Source of the DNA: Dryococelus australis
Lineage: Eukaryota; Arthropoda; Insecta; Phasmatodea; Phasmatidae
Direction: 5' to 3'
Assembly: GCA_029891345.1 (NCBI GenBank)
Contig: CM057005.1
Location: forward strand, 68,891,760 to 68,955,759
DNA: 64,000 nt
In this document: piece by piece, positions 1-37,065 of the stretch
How positions within the stretch are numbered: position 1 is the first letter of the stretch
Layout of the letters: each line of letters opens with the position of its first letter
Program-made: the position numbers and the translations under genes
The notes under the pieces: generated by a model
Told to the model about the DNA's origin: nothing
Seen by the model: the letters and a program-made list of their open reading frames with translations, nothing else
Databases searched by the model: none

Positions 1-1889
1 GGTGCTTCCCAATCACCGCACTATTGAGACTAAGGGTTCTCTAGGATGCTGTGAGTTCTGTGTGTCCGTCTCACCCATGTGTACTTACAAACACGTTGGC
101 AATACTTAACTTTTAATAAAATCACTGAAATAAAAAATTGATAAAACATGTGGCTACGACACTGTCACTACTGAATAAAAAATTAGTTCACTGTAGACTT
201 GTTTTTATTGATATTGTTCATACACATCAACGTGCCAATGAAATTATTATCTCGGTCATGACTAGCCAATTCTGCTTGGGTGCTCCCCAGCCCATAATTA
301 ATCTCGCGCACTCCTAAATGGATGATCTCACTGAGGTGCGTGAAAGCACAGCCTCCACAAGAGAAGAGGGCCGACAGCCGCTAGGGTGGACTGACGGTCA
401 TCCCTGAAGACAGGACACTGTGAATTACAAATGAAAACCCTTAATACACATTAACACGTGTGATTACTCTGCATCACTAACGCAAACTCGCCGGGGCTCA
501 CCCTCCAGCATGTGGTTAGTGTGGTGATGGTCTATACACAGAGCAGGCTAGGACGGGAATAATTGCACCATACACTAATTACACAATTACATAGACCCTT
601 GAATGATACATGAAATAAAATTGGACACAAGACGAATATTCCCAATAAACACACACATGTAAAAACAAGCTTAGGTGGCGCAGATGCTGCTGGATGAAGT
701 TCATAGAGGACCACATGGTACAGGTGAAAATGCAATATTTCTGCATGGAAACTGCAAACTAAATTCAGATAAAATATTATTCGTGTTGAGCAAGTGGTTC
801 TCTTTACGATTTGCATTGTTACAGGCTTGTAACATGCCTGATGGCGGTGAAATCAAACATTAATGTGACCGCGTGGTCAAGTACAAAAAGCATCAATTTA
901 CGTGAAAAATACATTGAACCCTGAATGAAATTGACATAGAACCCTGAAATAAATGATTGCACATACAATGTTATATAAATAAGCTCTTAAAATGCATTGC
1001 TGTTGCATACAAAGACTTGGCTTCAGCCGGCCACGTGGTTATAAGTGATGTTGCCATAAAATATTCAAACACGAAAATTACCCTCAAATACATACATAAA
1101 AATAAAGCTCTTAAAATTGTGTGTAGCAATTATTTAGAAGTTACACTGAAATGCCATAAACATAGGCAGATGGTGCCTGATTCAAAATGCACGGATCGCG
1201 TGACCTCTCTGACATCTTTCTCCTCCTTCTCCTATATTAAGTTAAAAATGCCATAAGGGCGTACGAATTAGTAAAGCAGAAGCATAATGCTGAGGAAACT
1301 GTCTGGCAAAAACGTACGCAAGCAAAGATTAACCGGTAAACTACATTGACTATGGAAACCTAAATCAGTGAACAAAAGTTGTAGTATGTATGTGACAGTG
1401 TCTTACCATGCCACCTCTCCCCGACAGACTGTCCAGATACATGTGTTGCACGGACCTACCATGGTCGCCTACGGGGTTCACATAAGCGGAAGTGCTATGC
1501 ACGCTGAGTGAAATATTTTACATTGAAAATAAAATGGCACAAATTAAATTTAATATTGTTTTACATTTCTACAATTTTCTTATGAATTTCAATATTATTT
1601 TAATATCTCTTTGTGATGGCTTTCATGCCGGAGTATTAAGTGTTCTTAATCTCGCTGCCATGGGCACTGTGAATATTCATAACCAAACAATTAAAATTAG
1701 TACAAACACTTTAAAACATTTTATGATATATTAAACTCTGTAATGACAATATAACACATTTTACCCTGAAATTAACATTTATAGGAAAGTTCCAAATTAT
1801 TGGCCCCTTTGCGTACATGCCATACACGTGACACGTGCTTGGTGAGTGCCGTCATGGACTCTAGCTCCACTGGCTGTTAGCCGGCGTCA
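1..1889 (+). mobile_element. Solo-LTR-like repeat, copy 1 (cut by window edge)
   Basis: This is the first of three copies of a 1.82-kb repeat; the others are at 12691-14509 (inverted) and 18233-20057. It begins inside the element: base 1 corresponds to about 70 bases into copies 2 and 3. It ends with GCCGGCGTCA at 1889, where the other copies end GCCGGCATCA. Open frames inside (for example 675-863 and 1492-1734) have counterparts in copy 2 but break in copy 3, so I read them as chance frames in related DNA. CACGTG occurs at 455, 1032, 1825 and 1832. The TG...CA-like ends and the short target duplication of copy 2 suggest a solo LTR; a large non-autonomous DNA transposon remains possible. Confidence 0.7.
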
Positions 1890-2895
1890 ATATTTTCACA
1901 TTATTTCTTGGTGTTTCTGTGTTACTTTTCATTGCACATGCTATATCACTAAATTCCTCTTAGCACGTATTTTCAAATGTCATTGAAATAAATATATGTT
2001 TCCAGGGGAAAAATCATACGTGCGTTAATTATCTCTGTCCATACACAAGTTACAGTCACTTTGCGGAAAACTACTTGCCCCGTACGTAATTTCATTTAGC
2101 GAAAACCGCATTTTGTAATCTGCAACCGTTCCGGAAATTTTGGGATGTCCACGTTAGGCAGACCATCCTGTATAAAGTCACTGTACTTCCACCAACTATA
2201 CACTTCTTTATCCATCTCTATATCTACCTTTATTCATATCATCATCATTTGACCATGCAAAGTAGCTGCTCATGGAGCAATGGCAGAACCATGCACCAAA
2301 TATGCAACATTGTTTGTGCTTCATATTTTAGCATTCATCCTCTATGAAAATTAGCCAGTGCTTTTGTTGCGACATTGTTTAAAAACTAGTAATAAAACCT
2401 AGGATATTTGGCTTATTGAACCTAATCAAACACAATGCACTTGCCTCTATTTTGGCCACCAAAATTTTGACACATGAGAAGTTACTGTATACATTCAAAT
2501 TTCCAAAGAATTTGCTCAACATAAAACAATATCAAAAGGATTAGGCTTGGCTCAATTTTAATAACAAATTTTTTTTTTACCAAACAAATTATTTTTTTTA
2601 AGTACAATCCACAAATAATATTAGGTTTTCAATTAAAAAAAAACTGGTAGATATACATGGAGATTATAAAGGAACAAATAAACAATATAGCCAAAATGTT
2701 GGAAATAAAATGTACATTAGTTCCCTCAAAAATAGTAGCATTAGCAAAATATCCCTTCAATAAGATACCTAACAGATCATTCATGTTCATACACTGTATC
2801 AATCTTATATCAATACTGTACACCATCAATAAGCTGTTTTAAATATTTGAACTACCAAAATCATGTAGATTAATTAACATAATTCCGTGGCTTAC
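1890..2895. other. AT-rich interval, nothing recognised
   Basis: The interval contains A/T runs and chance frames only. If the exon at 2896-3007 belongs to an NSMCE1-like gene on the minus strand, this is the first part of its next intron; no second exon could be recognised here. Confidence 0.5.
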
Positions 2896-3007
2896 CATGG
2901 ACAACTTCATATATATTTGAAAACACAGTCAGAGCTTCTTTTTCTGCTAGCATAGTGTGACTCATCATTCCTTGAAGGAACATCCTATGGACGTCATTAT
3001 ACTCCAT
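2896..3007 (-). CDS. NSMCE1: First coding exon of an NSMCE1-like gene (partial)
   Basis: On the minus strand a splice acceptor (pyrimidine-rich tract ending in TTTCGCAG, AG at 3009-3010) is followed by G and an ATG at 3007. A 37-codon open frame runs to a strong donor, G|GTAAG, with the intron starting at 2895 (phase 1). The peptide begins MEYNDVHRMFLQGMMSH and ends in EVVH plus a split Gly/Asp-type codon. This resembles the start of NSE1, where a DVHR.FLQ..M.H block is followed by L.E and, about 20 residues later, VHD. NSE1 is the RING subunit of the SMC5/6 complex, which acts in the nucleus in DNA repair. The winged-helix and RING exons are not visible; they would lie at lower coordinates, through or beyond the repeat at 1-1889. 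Identification rests on one short exon recalled from family knowledge, so it is moderately supported. Confidence 0.5.
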
Positions 3008-3010
3008 CCT

Positions 3011-4050
3011 GCGAAAACAAAGAAAATTCATTAACTTTGACCGGGAATTACGCAAACTCAATGACTTAGGCTAAGTATACCGCTGAGAAGTATCATCAGT
3101 ATAGCCGATGTAAGTGATCTGGATGTAGAAAAGGGGTTCCCAAAATTACATGTAACAAATATATAAGTATGTCCACAATAATCACTTCTCAAATGGATAG
3201 TTAGAATAAGATATGAAATTCCACAGCCTGTCTGAGTGTACAGTAATTTTGAAGAACCGTTGTTGAACATGTACCACGAAAATACTTCTTTCTACCCACA
3301 CTGAAAGATTGAAAATCACTATACAAATCACAAATCATTATAAAAAAAAGTTTAAGAAAACTATATATACTAAACATATGCAGCCTTATGGTCATCAATT
3401 CAAATGGAACATTTAAAGACACAGCAAGCCATAGCTTTACACATTCATGTTAGAATTACCATTAAATTCTGTTATTAAACAGAAGTACTTGAGAAACAAA
3501 CAACAATAAATGTACACATGTAAGAGGCACATTATCTAAAATTAATAAATAGTAGTGGGTTTAAGAAGCCCAATATCAAATGTCAAAAGCATTAGGCTCA
3601 TCAAACATCAAGTTATGAGTGCAAAATGATGGAAAATGATTGCACTGGTACAAGCACGACAGAACACGCAATCACACAGTGTGGGAGGCATATTCCCACT
3701 TGTTTAGGTTAATTTTGAATCATCTGACTGCAACTTGTTATGGGACCTCCAGTTTGTCCAAACCTCCTCTTGTCATGGGAACAGGCATTCAGTACGTTCC
3801 CTTCAAGTGGCAGCAGCACAATGCATTCATAACTTCCAGATTGCCCTTACCAGAGGTTTCTGATGTCTGGCTGAGGCTTTTGATCAGTGGCATAACAACT
3901 ATGGGTCACAGAGTGAACATTTCTCCACCCTAAATTTAGTTAAGGGTATCACAATGACAGCAAATGGACACTCAAACTGTTTTTTCTCACCAATACGCAT
4001 TGATATATTGCATACAATCTTTAATGATCCCTTATAATGTATTTCTGTTA
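3011..4050. other. Non-coding interval upstream of the NSMCE1-like exon
   Basis: If the exon at 2896-3007 has a true acceptor, this is the intron or 5' flank of that gene. A 97-codon plus-strand frame at 3640-3933 has no recognisable motif or splice context and is not called as a gene. Confidence 0.4.
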
Positions 4051-4052
4051 TA

Positions 4053-4186
4053 AGCTATTCACAGTAAAGTAAGCACTCTTGTACAATGCAATATTTATTT
4101 AAAAATGGTGGTTACAGAATAAAAAAATGGCTGAAAGGAAAACGTAAACTAGGGCCTCAAAAGTGCTCACTTTAACGTGAACAACC
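4053..4186. mobile_element. TA-flanked MITE, family A, short copy
   Basis: The ends are inverted repeats of the family consensus GGCTGTTCACGGTAAAGTGA. The left end reads AGCTATTCACAGTAAAGTAA and the right end GTGCTCACTTTAACGTGAAC plus AACC. TA lies on both sides (4051-4052, 4187-4188), as expected for a Tc1/mariner-type target duplication. At 134 bp it is the shortest of seven copies in the window. No coding capacity. Confidence 0.75.
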
Positions 4187-4651
4187 TACCTATACTTATA
4201 TATTGGGCATCTTCGCCAGTATTCCAGAACATTTTTATAACTCAGTTCATACCCAGACCTTATCAGTATTCCAGAACGTTATAATGGCAGCTAAGGCCTT
4301 AGTTGCACCACGGCCGAAGCCTTAATCTTAGGGCTCCAATTGTGCTGATTTATTCTTGGTGCATACGAAACCTACGTATGCGCAGAACGCATATTTTGCT
4401 GGCGCTGGTACCATGATGAATGTTCATAAACTATATGATGCATCCAGACCGTTATACGGTTTGATGTAATTATTTATCTATAAATATGGCAACCTACACA
4501 ATTAAGTTATTTTGTAAATGAAAGTTAAAGTCGGCAAGAATACTGTGTAAAATGTGCAACTTTTTTTTTAAAACCTCCACCATTACAAACAATGCTAAAC
4601 ACGTAATCGGTCAACGAATATATATACAGTTTATTCAGTTCTACAAAGTGT

Positions 4652-4734
4652 GTGTTGTGTAAGCGCAACTGGTAGCATGTCTGACTATCAAGTGCAAATT
4701 TCGGGTTCGAATCTCGGTTGATGCAACCTTTTTT
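4652..4734 (+). tRNA. tRNA-like sequence with Pol III terminator, probably a pseudogene or SINE head
   Basis: A box-A-like GCGCAACTGGTAGCATG (about 4663-4679) is followed by a perfect box B, GGTTCGAATC. The T arm folds (TCGGG/CTCGG around TTCGAAT) and a T6 run at 4729-4734 follows directly. The D-arm to anticodon stretch (GGTAGCATGTCTGACT) resembles tRNA-Trp, but the acceptor strands do not pair and the anticodon arm is disrupted. I therefore read it as a tRNA-derived relic rather than a working tRNA gene. Confidence 0.4.
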
Positions 4735-5109
4735 AAGTTTTTAAAATTAACTAGAAATCTCTTATTTTCACAGGTATTATGTTGAATGAAGTCTATTTAT
4801 TTTAATAACTACACTAAGTAATACAATACTACGATGAATTATTAACAGTACGATATAACTAAAATCATTTGACAATAGGGCTTTTCATTGGTACCAATAA
4901 TTACATCTCTCAGAACTTTTTCAACAAAACCCACTAGTCACGCTCGAAATGCATTTCACGTTTCTCTCTTTTTATTTGAAGACCTTACTAGGCAAAAGAA
5001 AATAGTATAACATGTGTGCAAATTTCTTGTAAGCTACATCTCAGTGATGGGACGAATTAGGACATTATATTGGCATGACTGACGACATGGCTTTTTGATT
5101 GTTGACGTA

Positions 5110-5390
5110 GCTCGGACAAGCCGAAGCTAGGTGTAATTGAGTGAGTGAAAATATTTGGACGGCTCTTAACATTGAGGTCTTCAGAGCCGATGAGAGTGAT
5201 TGAGGTGAGGATGGAGCAGCACAAGAATAAAAGGGCGGGGGAAACGGGAGATTACCCGAGAAAACCCACCGACCAATGGCATTGTCCGGCATGATTCCCA
5301 CATGCGAAAATAGGAGTGACCCGGCCGGAAATTGAACCCGGATCGCCGTAGCGCCACAATACCAAGCATCACTCACAGAGACATTATGTC
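5110..5390 (-). mobile_element. tRNA-derived SINE, copy 1
   Basis: Read on the minus strand, a tRNA-like head with box B GGTTCAATTT (plus-strand 5329-5338) is followed by GGCCGGGTCACTCC, then a conserved body (GCATGTGGGAATCATGCCGG) and a tail with TCGGCTCTGAAGACCTCAATG, ending near TTTTCACTCACTCAATT. The same head-body-tail order is seen in the plus-strand copy at 11285-11560, and parts recur at 47680-47840. Box A is degenerate here. Confidence 0.75.
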
Positions 5391-6189
5391 AACAATGATA
5401 GTGATGTGGGGAAGTGATATAAAATTGGGAAATTGCAGTCAGTCATGCCTAATTATTTAGACAAGTCCTGCATATGCTTAGATCCCCTCTAAAAATGTAA
5501 TAAGTAAAGTTTCTTTATGTTTTGCATATTTGGCATGCCTGCCGTCATCCCATTGGTGGACACACACACCCAGTGGCAAAACTCCTCATTATGGTACAAA
5601 TGAGTAATTATTTTTCTTAAATAAAGTTTTTTAATTATTCAATGACTACTATCACATATTTTCATCATTTCAGCAGACTGCCAACACTGGTCGAACATTT
5701 TATTTATTTAAATGGGGTTGCATATGCCATGCATGTATTGTTATTGTGTTCTGCCATGTACAGAACAGCCAATGGGATGCTCCTCCAGAGGCACCAAGTG
5801 AATATAAATTATCCAGTTATGGTCCTAGTTGAGCATACATTTGATCCCCCTAATTCAAACCAGCATCCTGTTATATTGATGATGTAATAGCTGAACAGTT
5901 TACAACTGGGTTTGACCAGTGAATCGAGCATGCATAGGATCATTCTCAGTTGACATTGAGATTTGTATAATTAACAAAAGCAAACATCCTGGGAAAAATT
6001 AAAAGATTATTCCTATTCCAAAGCTAACTAACAGAGATTCACAAATTATGTTAGTGAAAATCTGCTGCAAATAAAAAATGATTCCTTGTTAACCACACAG
6101 TATCCTTACAAGCACAATACAGCAGGGCGTAGTCGAGTGTGTTCTTGACAAGACGCACATAAACTTGATACATTTCCTTAGTACATAAA
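5391..6189. other. AT-rich interval, nothing recognised
   Basis: An 81-codon plus-strand frame at 5642-5887 has no known motif. The last 100 bases may belong to the 5' part of the LINE relic that follows. Confidence 0.4.
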
Positions 6190-7850
6190 GGATATAATTA
6201 TGCAGGAAAACCACCTAAGGCACCAATATTCACTACACCACGGTTGGAAAACCAAGGCACATAATAATGAAATACGGGCTGTTATTTCAGAGGAAATAAC
6301 ACTCTGGCAAGCCAGTGACTGGGACAGCAAAGTAGCAAAATTATCTGCATGCAAAAATTATTTATGGGGTCTGATGAAGCATCTTTTAAACAAGACGGAT
6401 AAAATCTCACCCTTACAAAAAAACACAAGGATTACAATTACTCCTGAAGAAAAGATCCAGGCCTTTGCCAATATATATTCCAGCTAAATCAGGAGCCCTG
6501 TGATAGGCATTTCACAACACAACTTTACTGTGAATTAAAATTCAAACAAAGGCACCCGACAGGAAGACAAACCCAAACTGACACAGTGAGATGAGATTAA
6601 GCTTGTTATTTGCCACATGCATTTCCAGAAAAGTGCCTGGGGCTGATAGTATACAAGTTATTGTATTAAACAAAACTCCCAAACTGGCCCTCAAGTATTT
6701 AGCAACATGTATTAGTGTTAAACTCATGCTGGAATACTTTCTGGCCGACTGAAAAGCTGCATATAAAAGCGCTCCACAAGCCAGGCAAAGATAAAAAAAA
6801 CTGCCCCAAAATTACAGGCCTATCAGTCTATTAAATTATATAAGGTGATGGATTAATGCCCACCTTACTACCATAACTTATTACCAGAAGAGCAGTTTGA
6901 CTTCCAACAAAAGGAATTCAATGACACAACTCGTCAATAACTGAATACATGACACATATTTTCAACTACAAGGCCTATGTTGGTGCAGTCTTTTTAGACA
7001 TTGAAAAGGCATTTAATTGTTGAATGTTTCATGCTGGCCTACTTTTAAAATCACACTAATTAAAATTCCCCATCTGTTATATAATACTATTAGTCATCTA
7101 CATTGATCACAGAACTTTTTCTGTTCACTGTGAAGGAGTGAAATTGGCCGACAAATCAGTTTATGCAGGCATGCCAAAAAGCAGCCCTGTATTATTTAAT
7201 ATTTATATACATGACTTACCAAAGCCTGATAACCACTTGGTGCAATTTGGCTGTTATGCCAATGACATTGTCAAATTTAATCATTCACATGACACAAAGA
7301 CTACAAAATGCTCTGACAGCCTTTGAGGAATTTTACACGATATAGCAGATTAACATTAATGTCAGAAAAAGTGAAGTTATTGTTTTTACACTAGAACACT
7401 CCCACAAGCTGCCAAGTGCCCACAAACCACGCTCTTTGGTGAAACTGTGCCACACAAAGTTGAGGTGTGCACATGGGCCAAAACCTTACCTATATGGTAT
7501 AGATGCCAAGGGCTAAGTGTTTATGCCAGGTTATATGCCCTCTATCCAATATTAAATAGACAAAGTGTTATAATGTGAAATACAACAGTACTGTTATAAA
7601 AAATGCTCATATGTCAAATATTAGCATATGCCGCACCCACGTGGGCACATGCGGCAAAAACACATTAAGAGACTGCAAATCATTCAAAATTAATGGCCTC
7701 GGTATAGTTGCAGGAATTCCTGGATACTGTCCCATTATACACTTACATAATGAACTCAAAATTGAAGAATTGGGTAAGCAATTTGTCAAACTAAGTGGAA
7801 AATTCTACAGACTGTGCAAATAATGCCAACCCAAAAGTTTCTACTCTAAA
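6190..7850 (+). pseudogene. Jockey-clade-like LINE reverse transcriptase relic
   Basis: Broken frames on the plus strand give a collinear non-LTR reverse transcriptase. 6200-6487 encodes the pre-RT linker, ending in a TPEEKIQAFANIYSS-type stretch. About 6630-6840 encodes PGADSIQVIVL, then QNYRPISLLNYI. About 6960-7020 encodes motif A (VGAVFLDIEKAFN). 7138-7326 encodes motif B (AGMPKSSPVLFNIYIHDLP) and motif C as YANDI, where active enzymes have YADD. 7575-7823 encodes the C-terminal region with IVAGIPGYCPIIHLHNEL. Frameshifts and stops separate all blocks and no endonuclease domain is visible upstream. The C-terminal block is most like Jockey elements; the clade is inferred from motifs recalled, not searched. 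Confidence 0.8.
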
Positions 7851-8039
7851 CGATTATGATCCTGACTAAGTACAGAAAAACAAGTGACCAAAAAGCATAC
7901 TGACTCACAGTCTCCCCTTCTAAACATCATGTATCACTAAATGCATGCATTCAGCCATGCATGCACATGAAATTAGCAGCAGGAAACCTATATTACTGTG
8001 ACAAGAACACCACTCATTTATCAAAACTGCAAAGCACAT

Positions 8040-8392
8040 GTTCAGAAAAGGCAAAACATACACAGAACGGCCTCTGGCTCAGTGGCAGCCTTATGATACA
8101 TATTGCAACCAAATGCACTACGCACATAAATACTCAGAAACAAAATTTGCAAAGCAATATGTGTCCAACGAACAAGACAAAATATAGACAGCACAGTTCC
8201 TGGCCTCGACGGTAGCCCTGTGATGCACATTGCAAATATACTGCTCAACACACACAAGTACCCAAAACAACTAAAGTGAAACACTACACACTCACAGAAC
8301 AAGGTGAAACACTACACGCTCACAGAACAAGGCGAAACATACACTGCACAGACTGGCTCAATGACAGCCCTATGGCGCACATTACAACCATA
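8040..8392. repeat. Diverged minisatellite, three units
   Basis: Three diverged copies of a unit occur at about 8043-8110, 8169-8240 and 8323-8391. Each reads roughly CAGAAnAAGGCnAAACATAnAC, then a CAGC/GGC-rich stretch, then CCTATGnnnCACATTGCAA. Between units 2 and 3 a 28-bp segment (GTGAAACACTACACnCTCAC plus AGAACAAG) is itself tandemly doubled. A further single unit lies at 57535-57605. Confidence 0.6.
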
Positions 8393-11284
8393 CTTCTCCC
8401 ATCTCTGCTATGAAGACCTCGTTGAAAGCCGCTCAAATCTCTCAACTCCGACTCAAAATTCTCCCATCTGACAGTATGTGTGTGTATGTTGTATCCATGC
8501 AAGTAATTTATGCATATATTTACGTATGTATGTGTGCATGTATTGTCCATCATAGCTGATTCCAATGCATATTGTAATGTGTGCCTAGGCACACAGATAC
8601 TAAAAAAGTACACATAAACACACAATACTACACAAAGTTGAAAGTGAGGTCATGAGCAAGGTGGTGTCCCCATTACCCCTAATCAAATTTCTTCTTCTTC
8701 TTTCCTGGCTGCAATATTAACACCCTTATTCTGTGTCACATAGAGATGGCTGCTATCTATTGGCTGGGAGGGAGGGGTGGTTCAGTTCTGCTACCTGCTA
8801 CATAGCATGACCCTTGTTAACAATCAGCCCCAAACTAACTCATTTACTATCATACTGCACAAAACTCACACGAGTCTATCTTCACTAAATATCAATAATT
8901 CTACTTTCTCCTGATCTAATCCAGTAAAGGATACCTTCTATCATACATGACTGTCACACAGATTTTCCCAGCGCCTCTTCGCTTTGCATTGGTTTGCCAT
9001 GCTTTACAGTATAGAACCTTCGTCTTTCGGGGTGTGCTCGTGGCTACAATTGCGCCATGGCACCAGATGACCCTGCTTTAGCCACAATGGATGTGACCAT
9101 TTTAACATAACTCTGACCTACGACGTATAGGACTTGCACATGCTCCTACCATCATAGCTACTAATGTGCATGTTTGAGGGCCCACAGAACTGTGAAGGGA
9201 CTCGTGCTGGCACGATGGGATTTGGGGGACTGCTAGTTAATATTTTTAAAAAATCCCTTTATCTCAGTGGTGACAATTAAACATACAATGGTATTATGTT
9301 TTGATTCATAACTACGCTCATTCACTCGAAACTCATTGTATGATTTTCTTGTTTGTTATAAGTGCTGACTGTGAACATTATTTTGACTTATATATATAAT
9401 TGCAAATATGTATAAATGACTTGAACTTGTCATCAGACTTTGTCTCATACCAGTGTCAGTCGTGGGTCGTGTACATGCGAGGCACAGGGCCAAATGATGC
9501 ATGTAATACATGTGCTACGTGTGTTAAGTGCACCTGCACCAGATGTAAAGTGCACTGGAGCTATGCCCGATGACTGAAGATAATACTCAAAAGCGTTCAT
9601 GTTAGTTTTACGTAGTTATTTTGAGGTGCACTATGTGCATGTCCTGTAATTAGCCAGTAGGGTTTTGACGTATCTGTTAGCATGTACTCCCGTGCACACC
9701 TTGTGTAACAGCGGCCGAGGCCACCAGCAAAAAGGTTTTGTTAGCACGTAAGATCTTTGTGTATTTGTTTTGCTATGTACTTGTGTGCATGTTCTGTAAT
9801 TCAGTAAGTAAGAATTGATGTATTAATTTTGCCATTATATTCACCTAAGGACTTTTGTAGTCAATTAAACTCTGTGTAACTTCATGCTAGTTCAGACCAG
9901 GTCTCATGCGTTTTCTTTATGCAGCTTTGTTAAAAATTGTATTGGCTAATTTGCTTCTGAGTTCATGTAATGTCGTGCAAAGTTTAATGTAAATTTACCT
10001 TGCAATAAATGCTGCAAAACTCTGGATCTGTACTCCGTGGCCAATAACAGAGCTGCAGAGGTGTGTGTCTTTTGATGCAAGCCACGTGGCCATGCAGCAA
10101 CCTGAGATAGAGACTGTGCACACCATATGACCATGCACGAAATCACAGCGTGGCACTCGGGGAACACTATGTTACCACAACATCTGTTGCCTCACCAGTT
10201 AACCCAATTAACTAACTATATCTTAAAGCTGATGTGCTGATAAAAGACCAGTCTCATCCAATTAATTTGGCAGAATGCCCGAAATCAGTACAAAGGACAT
10301 TCTGTTTTTCCCGAATGGTCTCATGTTGCCTGTTTGCAGGAGGTCTTCCAAGTAGATATTCATTAGCCAGCCCTTTAGCCAGAATTCAACTTCAAAGAGC
10401 TTTCACTCTTTTGCAATGTTGAATTATGCTGGATTTTAGTTTTAACATTTTGTTTACCTTACAACTGATCACTTTGTACATACATCTTTGAACTTATAAT
10501 AGAATCCAGTGTTTTAACAAATGGTAATTTGATTTTAAGTATAGCAATTTTAATGACAACCACCAGCAATTTTTTTCCTTACTTTTTTTGCCTTGCTTGA
10601 GTGTGTCTCAATTCCATATGCTCGTACAACCATGACGGCATCCTGTTAACTTTGTTAACTTTGTTTTCTTCCCTCCCCTGCAGAGTTGCTGGCTGGTTCC
10701 TCGGCTTGGCTGTCCTCCATCTGTTTTTTGTAATACCTCAGTTTCGGATGATGACTCAGCAAAAAGGAGGTGTTGAGTGCCAATGGCACAGCTGTTCAGT
10801 TTTTGACTGGCAAAGCTTTTAGTACACAATTCAGAAAACTAGTCTGTCCGACTATTTTTGTTGCAAGTTTTCAATTAACAATCTTAATATTTAATTTCTT
10901 TTTTTTTTTAAGGATTCTAACCTAACTAACAAAAAAGTTGGATTTATAAATCAAAGTATTTAAGGTTTGAAATATGAGACCAGTTTGATTATCATATCTC
11001 TTAACACCCGTTACTGCAGTAAATGAGGAAACAAAAATCACACAACTGTTTATGGTTATGATTTTTAAAAATACATGATTTATTTATTAAAAATAGCTAC
11101 AATTTAATAGGAAAAACATGAAAAATTTACAAGACGTAAAGGACAAAAGCTAAATACATTATTGTTGGGGAAAAAATTGATTAGCTTTAAGAGAAAAGAG
11201 AAACACTAATTTTTATTAATGTAAATATGACACAATTATTTTTAATGCATTCAAAATGCTTATTATAAAAAGGAGAATTCTCAG
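8393..11284. other. Interval without recognised genes
   Basis: A possible acceptor (CTCCCCTGCAG at about 10672-10682) is followed by an open frame to 10822 encoding a hydrophobic stretch (AGWFLGLAVLHLFFV), but no family could be assigned and no donor or partner exon is evident. Otherwise nothing is seen. Confidence 0.4.
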
Positions 11285-11560
11285 TTTTATCTGGGGCTAC
11301 AGTTGCTGAGTGGTTAGTCTGCTCGCCTCCCACTAAGGTGAACCAGGTTCAATCCTTGGCTGGGTCACTCCGGAATTTCACACGTGGGAATTGTGCTGGA
11401 CAATGTTGCTGGTCGGCTGGTTTTCTCATGAATCTCCCATTTCCCCTTGTCGCCTCATTCCGGCACTGCTCCAAACTAACCTCGCTTCACCCTTAACGAC
11501 TCTAAAGCTACAATGTTAAGAGCCACCAAAATCTCTTCACTTCACTCACATTTATCTAAC
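11285..11560 (+). mobile_element. tRNA-derived SINE, copy 2
   Basis: This is the best-preserved copy. Box A, TGCTGAGTGGTTAG, lies at about 11304-11317 and box B, GGTTCAATCC, at 11346-11355. CTGGGTCACTCCGG follows, then the body (CACGTGGGAATTGTGCTGG) and a tail with GACTCTAAAGCTACAATG and CTTCACTTCACTCACAT. The tRNA-like head ACAGTTGCTGAGTGGTTAG plus CTGCTCGCCTCCCAC indicates descent from a tRNA of the Ser/Leu type (inference). Confidence 0.85.
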
Positions 11561-11763
11561 CAAACCTCTCCTCACCAGCTTCCTGTAACTGATGCCCACG
11601 GATGAAGACTTTGAGAGATAACAACCAAATGTAAAGTATATGAAGAGCTGTCACACAGCATAGTTACCAACTTATTACTGCAATTAGAAGAAATACCTAC
11701 ACAATTTGTACAACTGGACTAAGGTTCAAGTGAGATCCTTGAACCATCTGCCATGAATACCAC

Positions 11764-11940
11764 TGCAAGAAGGCAACCAGATCAAACATCTGCGACTTGG
11801 AGCTGTGCTGAAGCAGGATTTCCCCTCACAAATTAACCATTTGCTGCAAACAGAATCCAGGAATATCACCCCCTCCCCTGGCCCTTCTGGTGCTCCCACA
11901 TCCAGCCTGCCAGAAACAACCCCAGGCAACACTTACAAGG
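11764..11940 (+). CDS. Candidate internal exon of an unidentified gene
   Basis: An open plus-strand frame reads ...GNQIKHLRLGAVLKQDF, then PSQINHLLQTESRN, then a Pro/Ser-rich ITPSPGPSGAPTSSLPETTP. It ends at a strong donor, AAGG|GTAAGA (intron from 11941). Codon use and the charged-to-proline/serine pattern look coding, unlike the AT-rich surroundings. The acceptor is uncertain; CACTGCAG-like AGs lie near 11764-11770 with a poor pyrimidine tract. I do not recognise the family. It could be a single exon of a gene with long introns, or a chance frame. Confidence 0.3.
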
Positions 11941-11944
11941 GTAA

Positions 11945-12690
11945 GAATTGAAGGTGCGACCCACTCACCACTGCACACAGCTGACTAAACCATTTAACAC
12001 TGAACACATCTGTAGTCAGAAAAACGTTAGTAATTGTAGCACATCCAAATAAATATGCACAAGGATGCAGGTAACACGCAGAGTAGTTGTCTGGATAAAA
12101 AGCATGATGATACTGGACAATGTATAAATTGAACTGAAAACTTATACAAAAACCAATACACATTATTTTACTAGATACATTAGCACGGAAATATTTATAA
12201 TATTACAAGAATAATGAGGCAAGTAAGTTACTTAAAAAACGAAATACAAAAATAATGGCGGGCAAGATAAGGGGGAAGGGGGGATGTTTGAAAAAAAAAA
12301 AGTGTGAGTAGTATCAAAAACGTGGATGTATAGATCAATGACAATAACTCAATCCAAAGTACAAAAATCTTTAATAGAGAATAAGATTTACTGTTAAAAT
12401 ACAAGTGAACATACACAATTAATTTTAATTAAAGTAGGATAAACAATGCATGAAACTGCTGACACTAAAAAAACAGTTACACAATCATTTCCATAAAGTT
12501 GCTTAACAAGTTCACGAAAGAAATAAACAAGAAACTTTAAAATAACAGACAAAGCTACGATTTTAAAATATGCAAATAAGAAAACTTTAACATACTGATA
12601 AAGCCTTAATTTTTGAAAAATTAAACATGAAACGTGAAGTTTGACTATTAATAGGAATACTAGGTATTGCTTTTTTTCATAATCTAAGTA
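11945..12690. other. AT-rich interval, nothing recognised
   Basis: Only chance frames are seen. The last four bases (AGTA, 12687-12690) are the target duplication of the following repeat. Confidence 0.5.
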
Positions 12691-14509
12691 TGATGCCGGC
12701 TGACAGTCAGCGGAGCTAGAGCCCATGACAGCGCTCATGTGTTACATGTTCCGCACGTGCGCAAGGAAGCGGATAATTTTGAACTTTCCTATAAATGTTA
12801 ATTTCAGGGTAAAATGTGTTATGTTGTCTTTAATTGTTTGGTTATGAATATTCAAAGTGCCTGCGGCACCGAGATTAAGAACACTTAATATTCTGGCATG
12901 AACGCCATCACAAAGAGACATTAAAATTCGTAACAAAATTATAGAAATGTAAAACAATATCTAATTTAATTTGTGCCATTTTATTTTCAACATAAAATAT
13001 TTCACTCGGCATGCATAGCACTTCCGCTTATATGAACCCCGTAGGCGGCCATGGTAGGTCCGTGCGACGCTTGTATCTGGACAGTCAGTTGAGGAGAGCT
13101 GGTGAGGTAAGACACTGTCACGTGCGCACTACAACTTTTGTCCACTGATGTAGGTTTTCATATTCAATTTAGTTTACCGGTTAATATTTGCTTGTGTACG
13201 TTTTGCCAGACCATTTCCCCAGTATTATGCTTCCGCTTTACTAATTTTTACGCACTAGCGGCATTTTTAGCTTAATCAAGGAGAAGGAGAAGAAAGATGT
13301 CGGAGAGGTCACACGACCAGTGCATTTTCTAATCAGATGCCATCTGCTTATGTTTATGGCATTTCAGTGTAACTTCAAAATAATTGCTACATGCAATTTT
13401 AAGAGCTTTATTTTTATGTATGTATTTAAGGGTAATTTTCGTGTTTGAATATTTTACGGCAACATCACATGTAACCACGTGGCCAACTGAAGCCACACCA
13501 TTGTACGCCATCATTGTGTTTTAAGAGCTTATTTATATAACATTATATGTGCAATAATTTATTTCAGGGTTCAATGTATTTTTCACGTAAATTGATGCTT
13601 TTTATACTTGACCACACGGTCACAGTAATGTTTGAGTTCACCACCATCAGGCATGTTACAAGCCTGTAACGACTCTAATCGTAAAGAGAACCACGTGCTC
13701 AACATGAATAATACTTTATTTGAATTTAGTTTGCAGTTTCCACGCAGAAGTATTGCACTTTCACCTGCACCACGTGGTCCGCTACAAACTTCATCCAGCA
13801 GCATCCGCGCCACTTAAGCTTGTTTTCACATATGTGTGTGTTTATTGGGAATATTCATCTCGTGTCCCATCTTATTTCATGTCTCATTCAAGGGTCTGTG
13901 TAATTGTGTAATTAGTGTACGGTGCAATTACTCCCGTCCTAGCCGGCTCTGTGTATAAGCCGTCACCACACTAACTACGTGCCGGAGGGCGAGCCCCGAC
14001 GAGTTGGCATCAGTGATGCCAAGTAATCACTCGTGTTAATGTATATTAAGAGTTATCATTTTTAATTTACCGTGTCCTGCCTTCAGGGAAAAACCATCAC
14101 TCCACCCTAGCGGCTGTCGGGCCTCTTCCCTTGTGAAGGCTGTGCTTTCACGCACCTCGGTTTGATTATCCATTTAGGCATGTCATGACCGAGATAACCA
14201 TTTCATTGGCACGTTGATGTGTATAAACAATATCAATAAAACAAGTCTACGGTGAACTCTATTTTTTTATTCAGTAGTGAGTGTCCTAGCCACATGTTTT
14301 ATCAATTATTTATTCCAGTGATTCTATTAAAAGTTTAGTATTGCCAAAGTGTTTGTAAGTATGCACGGGTGAGACGGACACACAGAACTCACAGCATCCC
14401 AGAGAACCCCGAGTCTCAATAGTGCAGTGATTGGGAAGCACCGCTGGTGCCCAAATTACCAGTAAGTATTTGTGTCATCGTTCGTCTCGTGTCTCACCCG
14501 ACGGTGTCA
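12691..14509 (-). mobile_element. Solo-LTR-like repeat, copy 2 (complete, inverted)
   Basis: On the minus strand the element runs from TGACACCGTCGGGTGAGAC (14509) to CAGCCGGCATCA (12691), giving TG...CA ends. It is flanked on both sides by AGTA (12687-12690 and 14510-14513), a 4-bp target duplication; a 5-bp AAGTA reading is also possible. Length is 1819 bp against 1825 bp in copy 3. No coding sequence is shared intact by all copies. CACGTG occurs at 12754, 13119, 13476, 13692 and 13771. It faces copy 1 head to head across 10.8 kb. Confidence 0.8.
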
Positions 14510-14513
14510 AGTA

Positions 14514-15726
14514 CAAAACCTCCTAATGAACTTTATCATGAAACATAAAGGTTTTGAAATCCCAAACAATTTAAAGTAACCTTGTCTCAAAATTAATTGT
14601 TATGCAATAGAGTCCAGGGAATCTGATGGTAACAAACCCCTAACCAAAAAAAAAAAAAACCTGCAATACAAATGATCAGACTATTTACATGACTTTATGC
14701 ACAAGTCATCCTGGTCAAAATATTCTGTAGATCATTACTCTCAGTTTGGAATGGTGAGATTGTTTTAACCATGAACATCGGTTATCCGTGAACCTTTAGT
14801 CAGTCATTATCCCTGAAAATCGGGAGTCTATTGTATTTCCAGTGTTAGCCATTGGATTCTACTGTGTTTTGTAGATTTCTGTTGTTCAGATGCCTGTTGA
14901 ATTCTGTTGCAGTTCTGGAGGTTTACATTAACTTTTGTTGTGTTCTGTAGCTATGGAAACAACTGAGAATACAACAACAAAAAAAAAAAAAACAGGATGC
15001 AACACAATAGCATCTATTAAAACACAACACAAATAAGAACCACTGAGGATACAAGAACAAACAGTGATTATTAATTTGGAACCAACAAAAACCACTTGAG
15101 AACAACAGAAACCCGTAATAAATGCAACAGAATTTACAATAGAAATCAACAGATCTGCAATAGAATACAACAAAATTTTTGTTGGTTTCTGTTGTAAATT
15201 CTTGGCAGGGTAGTTACAGAGTGATAAAAAATATATACTTAAAATGTGGATTTCAGATATACAATAGTTATATGCAAGCAGCAAGCACATTCTATGAAAA
15301 GGAGTTTAGTTTCTGTTTGAACACGGAAATGAAGTTTGGAATATTTTTACTCCCTTCCACAAAATTGCCTTTCATGCCAGTACTACTTTTATAAACTGCA
15401 CATAACAGGTATGGAATCGCTGAAAATTGGTATTAGTTGAAGTATGGGTTTACTTACTCATTTTTTAAATATTATAATTTTAAGTGTCATGTTACTGTCA
15501 AAAAAAAGTGCTACATTCATATGTTTTAATCAATGAATTGTAGTTCGCTTCGCATTTACATGAACATTAGTGTCAAACTGCATATGTTGCACTAGTTTTT
15601 GCAAATTGCACATAACAATGTAAAAGTACTGAAAAAATATTTTTGAGAAAACTAATTCTACAAAGTTAACACAAAGCATTACGTGTTTCATTTCCGATTT
15701 TTATCTGAAATAAAAATTACGAAAAC
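14514..15726. other. AT-rich interval with CAACAGAA-motif cluster
   Basis: 14860-15210 contains many imperfect repeats of CTGTTG/CAACAG. The TTCTGTTG orientation dominates to 14960 and CAACAGAA dominates from 15000 to 15180, followed by another TTTCTGTTGTAAATTC. The segment can fold on itself. The rest is unremarkable. Confidence 0.45.
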
Positions 15727-15919
15727 CAGTGCCGGTCTAAAGTTTAAGACCACAGTGCAAAATAATTGAATATCACTTAGAACCTAAACTTTTGCCACCA
15801 GAGCAATGTCGATTTATTTCCGACACCTTACATATATGTATATAGACATGGACAGAAATGTTTGTACATTCACAGGTGCAAAGAGAAACAAACCAGTTTT
15901 TCGTAGAGGGGAAATATGG

Positions 15920-16300
15920 ACACATACAGCTTTACTGACATACTTAAATGTACCTAACTTATAGAAGATCATTGAGAAACTGTGTTTCAGAACAGATTAC
16001 TACTTCCAGAAAGATAACAATCCCAAAAATATGGCAGAAATTATTCAGCCCCAGTTGCTTTACAATATGCCACACCCCCTAAAAACTCCAGCACAGTCTC
16101 TAGATCTCAATCCGACTGAGATTCTGGGGAGTGAGCTAGTGAAAATAAGGAAACATTAGTATCCAGTAAATCACAATTGAAAGAACACACTGTTGCAAGA
16201 CTGACATAATATCAGCGGGGACACAACCAGCAAAAAACGTGTATTCTAATCCCAAACGGATGGAAGAAACCATTCACAGGCATACAAAGAACAGGGTGGA
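15920..16300 (+). pseudogene. Tc1-like transposase C-terminal relic
   Basis: The plus strand encodes, with stops and frame breaks, the second half of a DDE transposase: YYFQKDNNPKNMAEIIQ (second catalytic Asp block, about 16000-16045), then TPAQSLDLNPTEILGSEL (about 16090-16140). Tc1 enzymes normally have QSPDLNPIE.LW here; the Glu is kept but neighbouring residues have drifted. The N-terminal DNA-binding half is not recognisable. The transposase would cut and paste its own TIR-bounded DNA, but this copy is dead. Confidence 0.75.
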
Positions 16301-16319
16301 AGGGGGGGGGGGGGAGCAG

Positions 16320-17735
16320 CATTAATTTGGTTAGTGCTCATGTAAGTTTCATAAAGAATGTTATAGCTATGATGGTAATATACCTGCATGTTAATATGAT
16401 TTATTTTATTTGTGTATGTGAAGAGCAACAATGTTTGATCCTAGAGCACATAACATATTCTATCTCTCTTTGTAGTTGTAACTGTATGAATACTTCTGTC
16501 CATATCTGTATGTATAAGCTTCTGAAGAATTCATTGGGTTAGGCTACATATTGTAGAAGTAATGCATTTTTTAATATTATAAGAAAACACAGATAAAAAG
16601 TGTTGTGTTCCAAAGTTGTTGCCCATTATACTACCAATATTTTTTATAGTGTCAGTGTGGAACAAAAAAATTCCGAAAAAATGCTAGATAATTTGACTAG
16701 ATTTCAGTCTTGTCAAATCCATGAAAAAATCTAAATTTAATTTTTTTTTCCCCCAAATTTATTCCTAGCATGCTAAGTGAACTATTGGAACTGGTCTTCT
16801 CCCTACATGTAGATATAAGTTCACACCCACCTCCTTTGCATGAGGTCTAGCGGCAGATTTGATCTGTTTTATGCTGTGCATGGTCATAAGTAATTCTTAA
16901 GTTGATGCAGTTGGGGTGCGTGGTTTGGGGTTAGAGTGAATTGGAGCAGCAGTAAAAAACATTTAAGAATAAATTGTAAAGGATGGAATTTCCCGAGTAG
17001 GTGCTAGGTACTGTTACCAAGAGGTACGATGTTATTGCTGCAGTGGTTAATCTCAGGGTGCTGTGGGCCGACTGCCAGGGCATATGTAATCCCTCGTTGA
17101 CTTATGACTGCTACTCAGTTGAGATACTTACACTGTTGAATAGTGAGCCTATTTAAGGCCGACCCACATGCCTTGGCTTTAGAAAAACCCATTATGATGA
17201 TTCGTAATAAAGATCAGGATTATGGCGGATTCTAGGGGATCCTTACCCCAAAACGCTCGAAGACAGTACTTGGAATTAATCACACGTGGTTTGCAAACAC
17301 TCATAAATTTTCCTTGTATGTGAATTACACTCCATGCTAGGTACAAACTTACATTATTTCTGGCTGAAACCCACCAGAACGGTGACACTGCAAAGCGTGA
17401 AGCCTACATGAACAATTAAAATGAAAAGTTATGCTTCCCCACTCGATGGACGCTATAGGGAAGGAGAGATGGTATCTCCAGTGGCTAGATAAACAAAAGG
17501 TTCTGAGAGTTTACATGCTATCGATACGCTAAATGGTTGGTGAAAAAGATGTGCGCCACAGGACAGCAAACCAATGCAGACAGTGCCCTCAGAGTTCTTG
17601 GCTGCAACTAGATCGCAGGTGGCTAGCGTGGCATCGGCCTGACAGGACACGACCTGGTGGGAACTATTTTGTGTTGAAACATGCTTTGTGAAACTGTCTG
17701 GGAGGGCCAGAACGCCATCGAACATCAAAGTTATT
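16320..17735. other. Interval with one unidentified minus-strand open frame
   Basis: A 91-codon minus-strand frame at 17453-17728 (…SSHQVVSCQADATLATC…GTVCIGLLSCGAHLFHQ) has plausible codon use but no assignable family. A MITE abuts its first codon at 17736, so it may be the end of a larger, displaced coding fragment. A G12 run lies near 16304. Nothing else is seen. Confidence 0.25.
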
Positions 17736-17969
17736 GGCTATTCATAGTAAAATGAGCACTTTTTTGAAGGTCCATCTAAATTTTTTTATAACCAATTCTT
17801 TTATCTTACAGCCAGTTTTTGATATAAACATTACCACGTGACTAATAAATACAGTGTATACATTCACCATGCTCAAAAGTTAATGTCCAAGGTTACAGTG
17901 AAACATATTTATTAGTGGTTAATGCACGTTGGTAGGGCCTTAAAAAGTGCTCACATTACCATGAAAGCC
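17736..17969. mobile_element. TA-flanked MITE, family A
   Basis: The left end GGCTATTCATAGTAAAATGA and right end GGGCCTTAAAAAGTGCTCAC plus ATTACCATGAAAGCC are inverted repeats of the family TIR. TA follows the right end (17970-17971); the left flank has decayed to TT. Length is 234 bp, the common size class. Confidence 0.75.
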
Positions 17970-18232
17970 TACAGTTGTGTGTAAACAATGGGGAAACAGT
18001 GTGTGTAATAACACAAAATGGCAAATTACTGGCATGTACAAGTGCAACTAAACAAAAAGAAATTTTGCACAGGAGTTAAATGTCAGCACAACATGCATTG
18101 TGAATGCAAAAAAAAAATTTGTGAGTCAGGTGGTATCAGGTAGGAGTACCACAAACTGGTAATCAGCGTGCCGCATCGTTTTTTGTGAGTTCAACAAATT
18201 ACATGGGGAGCTACTCATTACTAGGAACATAT

Positions 18233-20057
18233 CGATGATGTCGGGTGAGACACGAAGATGAACGAATACACTATTTACTTACTGGTAGATGGACGCCAAC
18301 TGTGTTTCCCAGACACTGCACTTTGAGACTCAGGGATCTCTGGGATGCTGTGGGTTCGTGTGTTCGTCTCACCTGTTCATAATTACAAAACACTTTTCGT
18401 TACTAAATATTTTACTTCTGAACACTAGGAGCAAGCTGGGTGTCAACGGTACAAGAAGACATAAGTTTACACTGGTATGAGCGGGTTTATTTTATCCAAG
18501 TTACACATTATGGCAAATGAAAGTTTACGGTTACACTTGGACATGACTAGCCAGTTCCGGTGGGTGATTCAAGTTACTTAACTTGCGCACTCCTAGATAG
18601 ATGATTTCTCCACTGTGTCTAAGAACACAGTCTCCGCAAGGAAAGGGATCTACAGCCGCTATGATTGACTATAGGTTTTTCCTGAAGGCAGGACACGGAG
18701 AATGAACATGAAAACATACACGTGCGTTCATCCTCGTCACTAACGCCTACTTGTCAGGACACGTCCCCAAACCACATGATGTGTGCGACGATCAATTCAC
18801 ATAGCAGGTTAGGACGGAAAATAATACAGCAGTACAAAAGATAAATATCACTGTATGAACATGGGGCACGACATGAATAGGCAAAATAAACATGCAGATG
18901 AGTGAAAACAATCTTAGATGGCGTGGATGCAGCTGGATGAAGTTCTTAGCGGACCACGTGTGCAGATGGAAATTGCATAAATTTTACATGAAAATCTGTA
19001 AATTGCTACCGGACAAAATGACAATGGCGTTAGAATTATTCCCTTCAATATGCGAGCATACAAAAATTCTAAGCACGCCTGATGGCAGGAAAATCCAAAC
19101 ACATGAAAAGACTGTGTTGTCATACTCAAAAAGCATCAGTCATGGAAAACACAAGAACTCTGAATTAAAACAATACATAGACCAATTATGGTGCACATGA
19201 CATTACAGAAATTAGTCCTCTAAACACGTGGATGGCACAGATACGGACTTGGCGGTAGCGAACCACGTGGCCGTGAGCAATGTGACCATAACACAGCTAA
19301 ACATGAGAAAAACCCTGAAATACACACATACAAATATCACCCTTAATATTGCTCAATTAAATTAAAAACCCTAAACATGGGTGGATGGCGCCTGATTCAC
19401 AAGTTGGACGGGCTACATGGCCTCTCCGACATTCTCTCTCCTCATTTTGTTAAGTTGAAAAGCCACATGTGCTGCAAAATTATTTAGTTAAGCAGAAGCA
19501 TAATGCTGGGGATGTCTGGCAAAACGTATGCGAAGCAAAGGTTAACCAGTAAACTTAAGTGATCTATGGAAATCTAACTCAGTGCAAAAATATGAAGTGT
19601 GTACATGACAGCATCTTACCTTGGCAGCTCTCCTAAGACGACTCGGCAGAGGCAAGGGTCGCGCGGACCTACCATGGCTGCCTACGGGGTTCACACAATC
19701 GGAAGTGCTATTCATGCTGAGCGAAAAATATTAATATGTGAAATTAAATCTGAAAATACTGTTGTTAAAAAAATGTCTTTTGAAGGCATTTTCGCCTGAA
19801 TATCAGTGTTCTGTTCTTCGGTGCAGCGCGCACTTTAAATTTCAAAACCAATCATTGCACAACATTGAGAAAAGAACATTTTTACACTTTATAACATATT
19901 TTGGCCTGAAAAAGAAATACACAGCACTCTGGAAACAATTATCCCATGTTGGGAAAGTCCAAGGTTGTGGCGGGCGGCACACACGTGCTTACCCACGTGT
20001 TGTGTGGGCTGCGAGTACCATCATGGCCTAACTGCCGCTGGCTTTTAGCCGGCATCA
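18233..20057 (+). mobile_element. Solo-LTR-like repeat, copy 3 (complete)
   Basis: The copy is collinear with copy 2 from CGATGATGTCGGGTGAGAC (18233) to TTTTAGCCGGCATCA (20057). The flanks are ATAT and ATGT, a decayed 4-bp duplication at best. CACGTG occurs at 18719, 18955, 19225, 19264, 19982 and 19994. The sequence is more diverged than copies 1 and 2 are from each other, and their shared open frames are broken here, arguing against a coding role. Confidence 0.75.
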
Positions 20058-20554: not shown

Positions 20555-20910
20555 GGCTGTTTACGGTAAAATGAACACTTTTGAAAGCCCTGCTTAATAT
20601 CTATTTATATGTACGTTATCTATTATTCCATCTATGTAAAATTAACATTGCCATGGGCCTCATAACCTTATTCATGCATCGGTCAGGTGAAACTGTGAAA
20701 ATATTAGAAAAGAAAACATGTTTCAAATCTGGTCATGTTTAGACTTCGAAGGAAAAAAAAAAAAAACGTTAAGATATGGAACTGCTTTCCATTCATTGTT
20801 ACCAACTTTACCGGGCGCATGTCACTCAGTGCGCACGTTAAAATATATGCAGGCAAGTGATTTTTTTACTAAGGTTGATTTCAAAAGTGCTAACTTTATC
20901 TTGAATAGCC
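20555..20910. mobile_element. TA-flanked MITE, family A, long subtype
   Basis: The left end is GGCTGTTTACGGTAAAATGA after TA (20553-20554). The right end is AAAGTGCTAACTTTATCTTG plus AATAGCC. At 356 bp it shares an internal block (about 20772-20835, with GGAACTGCTTTCCATTCATT) with the 48295-48723 copy, in the opposite orientation. The two form a longer subtype of the same TIR family. Confidence 0.75.
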
Positions 20911-36084: not shown

Positions 36085-36801
36085 TTAGCTCTCTACACTT
36101 GTAACATGGTCCTGATAACGTGTTGTCAGATACATTGCTAAATCAGTCATTTTCTCCAGAGAATGATTTAAACCATGCAAATGTTGGGTGAAGTCTTCCG
36201 TGACTAATCTAGAATAGTCTGGTGCGAGCTCCTCTCTAGGATCACTATCAGTCCCAGTCTCCGACATATCTCCATCGGAAATTGAAGGAACAGAATTATT
36301 CGAGGCCACAGACACTGATGAAGGTGTGCGTGTATGACCTTTCCCATGTGAAGATGATGATGAAAACGATGAGGATGATGAACAAATTGAAGCAGGTTGT
36401 TCTTCTACCAGAGGTGTGTGTCCCCACATAAGTTCATTTTTCATGCAGTTAATCATTGTGTAAAGAGCATATAAGTTGACATCTCCAACATGCTTGCACA
36501 TAAATTTTCCATCAAACTGTTTAAAAGTGTTTGTTGAATTTCTGACATCAGGTAATACTTCCCGGTCTCCGTAAGGTAAATCTATAAGCCTACTAGGCAC
36601 CAAGATCGTATTATTCATGTCATTTACAGCTTTGACAAATTTAAGGACAGCATGCAAAAGGCTGTGTCTTGAAAATTCTGTTTTGTCCGACTGTAAAACA
36701 TCCAGCTGACTATTCATGATGTGCATTTCATCACAGAACATATTAAAAAAAAAAACCTTACGTTTATGTAAACGAACAGATAAATTAATTTTCTTCAGCA
36801 C
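36085..36801 (-). CDS. MID1IP1: MID1-interacting protein 1 / Spot14 family protein
   Basis: An intact 238-codon frame. Residues 46-76 (HSLLHAVLKFVKAVNDMNNT, then ILVPSRLIDLP) match the Spot14/MIG12 N-terminal signature (…F..AV..M..T.MVPS.L.D.P). A second block, LYALYTMINCMKNELMWG, follows at about 108-125. A serine-rich, probably disordered linker occupies about 138-185. A C-terminal helix (DFTQHLHGLNHSLEKMTDLA…TTRY) matches the family end. Vertebrate MIG12/Spot14 bind MID1 and acetyl-CoA carboxylase and promote its polymerisation and fatty-acid synthesis in the cytoplasm; that role is inferred here. The first 20 codons contain a T11 tract and have no family counterpart, so the true start is likely Met21 (36741), Met26 or Met29 (36717). 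Vertebrate members are about 150-185 aa; the extra length lies in the linker. It is intronless over the coding region and is the only intact gene here. Confidence 0.85.
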   Translation of the reverse strand: MLKKINLSVRLHKRKVFFFNMFCDEMHIMNSQLDVLQSDKTEFSRHSLLHAVLKFVKAVNDMNNTILVPSRLIDLPYGDREVLPDVRNSTNTFKQFDGKFMCKHVGDVNLYALYTMINCMKNELMWGHTPLVEEQPASICSSSSSFSSSSSHGKGHTRTPSSVSVASNNSVPSISDGDMSETGTDSDPREELAPDYSRLVTEDFTQHLHGLNHSLEKMTDLAMYLTTRYQDHVTSVES

Positions 36802-37065
36802 ACTGGAGAATTAGTATTCAGCTCGACATATTTCACCAGGATCAGTGAAATAAAAAATCGCATCTAAATACTTTGAATGTATGTAGACAAAATATTCGTA
36901 AATACGAATAACATCACAACTTGCCTTAGTTACTGTTAAGAACGGATTGAAACTGCTGCTTCCTCCTAACCACTTAAAAATTTTTGCACTACAAACACAT
37001 AACAGCACGCCCAGCCGTACGCTGTGCGGCGATCACGCCACAATACGCCTTCCTCATTGGCTGAA
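36802..37065 (-). promoter_or_regulatory. Candidate 5' UTR and promoter of the Spot14-family gene
   Basis: Upstream of the coding region the base composition becomes GC/CpG-rich at 36995-37045, unlike the AT-rich surroundings. A CCAAT box lies on the minus strand (plus ATTGG, 37056-37060). No clear TATA box is seen, so a CpG-type promoter with the start near 37000 is plausible. An upstream 65-codon frame (36811-37008) lies in the presumed leader. Confidence 0.4.

Follow-up and report, generated by a model that had tools for sequence, protein, structure and literature searches.

CACGTG-rich long terminal repeats of an old retrotransposon lineage in the stick insect Dryococelus australis

Our analysis concerns a 64,000-bp stretch of the genome of the stick insect Dryococelus australis (assembly GCA_029891345.1, contig CM057005.1, positions 68,891,760 to 68,955,759), which we refer to as the window, and three related repeats within it that are rich in the E-box hexamer CACGTG. 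Judged by their sequence features, these repeats are the long terminal repeats (LTRs) of one old LTR retrotransposon lineage with two subfamilies, A and B. The E-boxes are an ancestral, clustered trait of this family and are not confined to the window, and the inserted copies show decay of the sites, not preservation. We consider it probable that the boxes were the element's own enhancer sites for basic helix-loop-helix (bHLH) factors in a lineage that is most likely Ty3/Gypsy and whose solo LTRs are now decaying.

The original prediction described the three repeats as solo-LTR-like. All three are indeed LTRs, and copies 1 and 2, of subfamily A, are solo LTRs, each being a single LTR with its own target-site duplication and no internal sequence alongside. 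Copy 3 belongs to the related subfamily B, which is about 65% identical to A. The predicted coordinates were right to within a few bases, with the corrections that copy 1 is truncated by the start of the window and that copy 3 starts at 18236. In full, copy 1 (locus L009) ends in TGACGCCGG..ACGGCGTCA and is flanked by an exact 4-bp duplication, ATAT. The features of the three copies are as follows.

1 to 1889, minus strand: copy 1, solo LTR of subfamily A, 1,956 bp in full, of which the window start cuts off 67 bp
1890 to 1893, no strand: target-site duplication ATAT of copy 1, its partner side lying outside the window
12687 to 12690, no strand: left target-site duplication AGTA of copy 2
12691 to 14509, plus strand: copy 2 (L001), solo LTR of subfamily A, 1,819 bp long and in sense orientation on the plus strand
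14510 to 14513, no strand: right target-site duplication AGTA of copy 2
18236 to 20057, minus strand: copy 3, LTR of subfamily B
455, 1032, 1825 and 1832: the 4 E-boxes of copy 1
12754, 13119, 13476, 13692 and 13771: the 5 E-boxes of copy 2
18719, 18955, 19225, 19264, 19982 and 19994: the 6 E-boxes of copy 3
1825 to 1837, no strand: two E-boxes in tandem, separated by 1 nt, close to the 5′ end of the A LTR; in some relatives a third box follows after another 5 nt
13476 to 13481, no strand: E-box at a site common to A and B, equivalent by alignment to copy 1 position 1032 and copy 3 position 19264
13771 to 13776, no strand: E-box at a second site common to A and B, at 18955 in copy 3 and reading CATGTG in copy 1
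14235 to 14240, plus strand: AATAAA, putative LTR polyadenylation signal, in the commonest AATAAA column (25 of 28 A copies)
19982 to 19999, no strand: tandem E-box CACGTG-N6-CACGTG, close to the 5′ terminus of the B LTR

The window holds 26 CACGTG hexamers, 15 inside the three copies and 11 outside, which bears out the predicted counts of 4, 5 and 6 per copy and roughly a dozen elsewhere. Dinucleotide shuffles of copies 1, 2 and 3 gave mean counts of 0.37, 0.49 and 0.40, and the observed count was reached in none of 500 shuffles for any copy. In the remaining 58,462 bp, the 11 hexamers compare with 6.75 expected, and 7.5% of 40 shuffles reach 11. CACGTG is also the most over-represented hexamer in the three copies combined, with 30 occurrences on both strands against 2.6 expected. 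Because the copies are related, their counts are not independent trials, and a fairer test considers a single ancestral LTR. Approximately 7 sites in one such LTR, against 0.5 expected, correspond to a Poisson probability of 1e-6, or about 0.002 once corrected for the 2,080 hexamer classes. Positions 1032, 13476 and 19264, which had been called equivalent, are one aligned site, and the alignment of 13476 with 19264 between copies 2 and 3 persists when the E-boxes are masked beforehand.

To place the copies in their family, we drew relatives from the whole genome (3,415,067,245 bases searched), which is reported to comprise 3.42 Gb in 17 major scaffolds and to be 63.29% repetitive, most of this being unidentifiable from databases (PMC10268593). 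The best 40 of 13102 first-look candidates were scored for copy 2, itself included, and the best 40 of 11208 for copy 3. The main matches of copy 2 to the other 39 scored candidates are 81-86% identical, most of them near full length. Our A set consists of 28 loci (given below as L numbers) taken from the top matches of copy 2 and hence not a random sample, and our B set of 15 rows consists of copy 3 and 14 of its 39 other scored candidates. Other genomic copies carry the sites as well: the 28 A LTRs together with copy 3 contain 126 boxes in 55.7 kb, compared with 21 boxes in 120.5 kb of sequence flanking 24 A loci (L001, L008, L017 and L027 left out). With 150 shuffles for each LTR, at most 2.7% reach the observed count in 28 of these 29 LTRs, so that the density exceeds shuffled expectation in the wider set as it does in the three copies of the window; L010, with one box, is at chance level (49% of shuffles). 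Eight further A places have 1-6 boxes each (31 in 16.0 kb), and the 15 B rows have 46 boxes in 28.7 kb, ranging from 0 to 6. The boxes are nearly or fully lost in a few copies, with none in L050 and one each in L010, L037, L043, L044 and L045. Seven E-box positions recur in A and six in B. The 43 rows have 166 boxes, all of them outside the final 400 bp of the LTR, and in 35 rows AATAAA occurs within the final 450 bp.

The identity of the family is indicated by several structural features. The LTR termini are of the type TGAYGCCGG..GGCRTCA. Both ends were recognised at 19 of the 28 A loci; the 4-bp duplication is exact at 15 of these and agrees in 3 of 4 bases at 3 more, and L008 lacks one. 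The 40 scored copy-3 candidates include four same-strand LTR pairs whose starts are 6.75-7.03 kb apart, and no pairs were found among the 40 scored copy-2 candidates. Subfamily A has a cluster of boxes spaced 1 and 5 nt apart at its 5′ end, and among the places listed for this triple array there is one pair 6,978 bp apart. Three LTR pairs were read, of which two are flanked by 4-bp duplications (ACTC and AGTT). The LTRs within each of these pairs are 84.7-89.0% identical, and the insertions therefore look old.

The sequence next to the LTRs points in the same direction. Three of 27 A loci compared (L008, L017 and L027) have in common 1.4-1.9 kb of sequence upstream of the LTR. The piece from L017 matches RNase H (E=2e-5; 25.1 bits, barely above the Pfam cut-off of 24.8), and the pieces from L027 and L008 match the integrase zinc-binding domain H2C2 (E=1.3e-15 and 1.6e-12). 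The RNase H piece begins about 2.2 kb before the 3′ LTR and the H2C2 pieces about 1.2-1.7 kb before it; a fourth internal fragment, lying closer to the LTR, matched nothing in Pfam. An order of RNase H followed by integrase adjoining the 3′ LTR is that of Ty3/Gypsy and not that of Copia, and by gene order Ty3/Gypsy is the most likely affiliation, BEL/Pao being a less likely alternative. Upstream of L008, an LTR end is followed by AT and then by TGGCGTTCCCAAGTGGGACC, at the position of a primer-binding site. The order LTR end, AT and TGGCGTTCCC, which resembles a primer-binding site by position, recurs after L038 and, with base changes, after L042, L049 and L050 (4 of the 14 fetched B LTRs). 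A purine-rich tract of the GGGAGGGGTCGTT type, with variants, lies directly before L008, L043, L047, L048 and L051, in both subfamilies, as expected of a polypurine tract. Because of the duplications, the paired LTRs, the primer-binding-site-like and purine-rich edges and the RNase H and integrase sequence, we interpret the family as an LTR retrotransposon whose order fits Ty3/Gypsy. It resembles LTR retrotransposons of the Ty3/Gypsy group, solo LTRs included, in its TG..CA ends, 4-bp duplications, primer-binding-site-like sequence 2 nt past the LTR, purine-rich tract and RNase H preceding integrase. It differs in its LTR, which is about 1.9 kb long and rich in CACGTG, and we assign it to no named family. 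The four internal pieces contain just 2 boxes in 6.0 kb and gave no blastn match to the window. As a separate observation, L029 (2760-3789) contains partial A LTR ends arranged head to head (inverted about 2760-3139, sense 3188-3789) and is a rearranged element.

These features suggest how the sites came to be dispersed. When active, the element had an LTR of roughly 1.9 kb with 6-7 CACGTG boxes, some clustered in about the first 90 bp and others standing singly downstream, with none in the last 400 bp. A host bHLH dimer, of the Myc/Max, Mondo/Mlx, Clock/Cycle or USF type, most likely bound these boxes and drove transcription of the element. Recombination between LTRs would then have left solo LTRs with their sites, which have since been decaying, mostly via CpG transitions. 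The promoter could lie at one of several points within the LTR, because TATAA-type motifs recur at more than one place: two columns far upstream of the TATA of copy 2 have such motifs in 18 and 19 of the 28 A copies. The copy 2 TATA itself, at 13954, is rejected as a conserved promoter element, as copy 2 is the only one of the 28 A copies to have it in that column.

Several observations weigh against this interpretation. Given the upstream TATAA-type motifs, it is not certain that the boxes all lie upstream of the transcription start. No target duplication was seen at copy 3, whose edges are tcga and atgt; nor does the third of the three LTR pairs read have a duplication. In four of the 15 B rows at most one box is present. 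The A cluster can be read in part as a short tandem duplication (TCACGTGTCACGTG), in which case its boxes are not independent. Within A, comparison of pairwise cells shows the E-box kept in 1471 of 3044 (48%) as against 18189 of 46050 (39%) for other NNCGNN hexamers, among which it ranks mid-table. Between A and B, the recurrent positions are not conserved above other CpG hexamers in a site-level test of the 28 A and 15 B rows. Three of 7 A positions and three of 6 B positions are shared, against a background of 24/86 and 24/78 among the other CpG hexamers, with p 0.33 and 0.29; at a stricter threshold the background is 16/77 and 16/51, with p 0.19 and 0.31. The outcome is unchanged with or without box masking, and the masked test of copy 3 gave p=0.12. 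A stronger conservation of position between A and B, suggested by 36-42% against 8-9% for copy 3 versus A, vanished once the boxes were masked before alignment and was rejected. The original prediction had looked to conservation of the sites relative to background divergence, and here it found little backing, with values close to neutral within A and p 0.19-0.33 between A and B.

A rival interpretation is that the E-box richness is an ancestral accident. A founder sequence, enlarged by short 5′ duplications, would have had many boxes with no role even for the element, and their abundance would follow copy number only. This account and an enhancer role exclude each other. The accident is consistent with decay within A much like that of other CpG sites, with A-B sharing of positions not above background and with an A cluster that reads like a short tandem duplication, and we regard it as possible, if tentatively. 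Against it stands the number of boxes in one LTR, about 7 where 0.5 is expected, which remains improbable (about 0.002) after allowing for the 2,080 hexamer classes. Against it also stands the fact that both subfamilies, at about 65% identity, have 6-7 recurrent boxes where chance would give ~0.5, with about half of them at different places. The retained number of boxes, as opposed to their positions, is the one feature that hints at selection while the element was live, and two lineages are its whole basis.

The spacing of the boxes raises the question of which factors they might suit. In the 5′ cluster of B, two boxes are separated by 6 nt, and 5 of 15 B rows keep this pair intact. The tandem E-boxes of CLOCK:BMAL1 are described as 6-7 nt apart (PMC8240256), and as a motif this spacing is present in copy 3 at 19982 and in those 5 B rows. 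The canonical tandem form of the carbohydrate response element is given as CACGTG-N5-CACGTG (PMC11900861). This exact form occurs in 4 of the 28 A copies (L004, L012, L025 and L026), although here it lies inside a repeat and the link to Mondo/ChREBP-Mlx is one of motif only. In the window, a relaxed pattern for a 5-nt-spaced pair gave 0 matches.

Genome-wide, the exact A triple array occurs at 277 places (121 + 156), compared with 0 for the reversed control, in agreement with the suggestion that the family could disperse such sites across the genome. There are 2345 instances of CACGTG-N5-CACGTG (reversed control 257) and 406 of CACGTG-N8-CACGTG (reversed control 482). The first 50 listed N5 places all lie on C1; in 25 of them the spacer differs from that of A by at most one base (random 5-mers 7.8%), in 11 it resembles the B spacer shortened by one base (random 5-mers 9.8%) and in 14 it resembles neither, spacer likeness being no proof of LTR membership; 5 of the 50 coincide with listed triple arrays. 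Paired CACGTG is also found in other repeats, namely a 14-bp tandem array of CACGTGTATCTATA units at C1:243504377-243504466 and a separate dispersed sequence, CACGTGTTTACCACCACGTG, present at 7 of 50 listed N8 places. A more ambitious proposal is that the LTR lineage is a main source of tandem E-boxes with perfect spacing in the genome, 5-nt in A and 6-nt in B, with subfamily grammars that resemble Mondo/Mlx and Clock/Cycle sites, respectively, and could place genes near the LTRs under the control of sugar sensing or the clock. We consider this proposal unlikely.

A related account is that the host has domesticated many copies and keeps them as circadian or sugar-response elements. The presence in A and B copies of the 5-nt spacing of the carbohydrate response element (PMC11900861) and the 6-nt spacing of CLOCK:BMAL1 (PMC8240256) speaks for it. 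The window, however, lacks a 5-nt-spaced pair, and the sites decay much like other CpG hexamers: the seven recurrent positions of A have the box intact in 101 of 182 ungapped cells, and the 81 losses comprise 50 single CpG transitions, 17 other single changes and 14 multiple changes. The family-wide test on A thus finds no retention of the sites above background after insertion, and nothing points to their preservation by the host. We judge domestication on this scale very unlikely. Least probable of all is a non-autonomous DNA transposon, for which the short inverted termini, the 4-bp duplications and the lack of pairs among the 40 scored copy-2 candidates might be invoked, but which is contradicted by same-strand LTR pairs about 7 kb apart, primer-binding-site-like and purine-rich edges and upstream RNase H and integrase sequence.

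Having weighed these alternatives, we return to the element whose own LTRs probably used the boxes, for which partial parallels exist in other systems. RSINE1 of mouse is described as a short interspersed nuclear element (SINE) in which boxes start out imperfect and become CACGTG through C-to-T changes, with chromatin immunoprecipitation (ChIP) evidence (PMC8240256). Both are repeat families that seed tandem E-boxes and are shaped by CpG mutation, but the stick-insect LTR, known here from sequence, brought in perfect boxes that are then lost by CpG transitions. The LTR of bovine leukaemia virus also has E-boxes. For E-box 4, in R, binding and activation by USF1/USF2 are reported in a review that prints the site as CAGGTG in its text and CACGTG in its table, and that gives the three U3 boxes as CAGCTG or CACCTG (PMC10236774). 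The stick-insect LTR differs in having 6-7 CACGTG and belongs to an unrelated element. Among the titles and abstract starts listed in a literature search, which is no proof of absence, there was no paper describing this LTR family. That repeats can bring ready-made factor sites is already known; what is new is this LTR family of a known kind.

The window contains several other features. An open reading frame of 241 aa (stop to stop) at 36085-36810 on the minus strand matches Pfam Spot_14 (E=2.2e-16) and marks a MID1IP1/Spot14-like gene. Mammalian Spot14 is a classic carbohydrate-response target. A link between the LTRs and this gene was considered and rejected, as the window has no 5-nt pair and the LTRs are about 16-36 kb away. 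At 51323-55622 on the minus strand lies a broken Ty3/Gypsy-like element with Pfam matches to reverse transcriptase, RNase H and the integrase core, and to gag only below the cut-off (3.7e-4); an 81-bp tandem duplication (52596-52757) falls in its RNase H frame. This pol sequence (51-56 kb) represents another element, with no blastn match to the internal pieces of the E-box-rich family and 45-58% amino acid identity over short stretches. Further repeats include a 65-bp tandem repeat at 62619-62817 (3.1 copies, 99% alike), a self-inverted stretch of 260 bp at 34579-34838 (79%) and another dispersed repeat at 20556-20905 and 48300-48728, in inverted orientation and 80-84% alike.

An LTR with 6-7 perfect E-boxes allows the supply of factor sites by a repeat to be measured in a large insect genome. 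The tandem pairs of these LTRs may supply a large share of the genome's 5-nt-spaced CACGTG pairs, and scans for paired E-box motifs in Dryococelus australis may largely find old LTRs.

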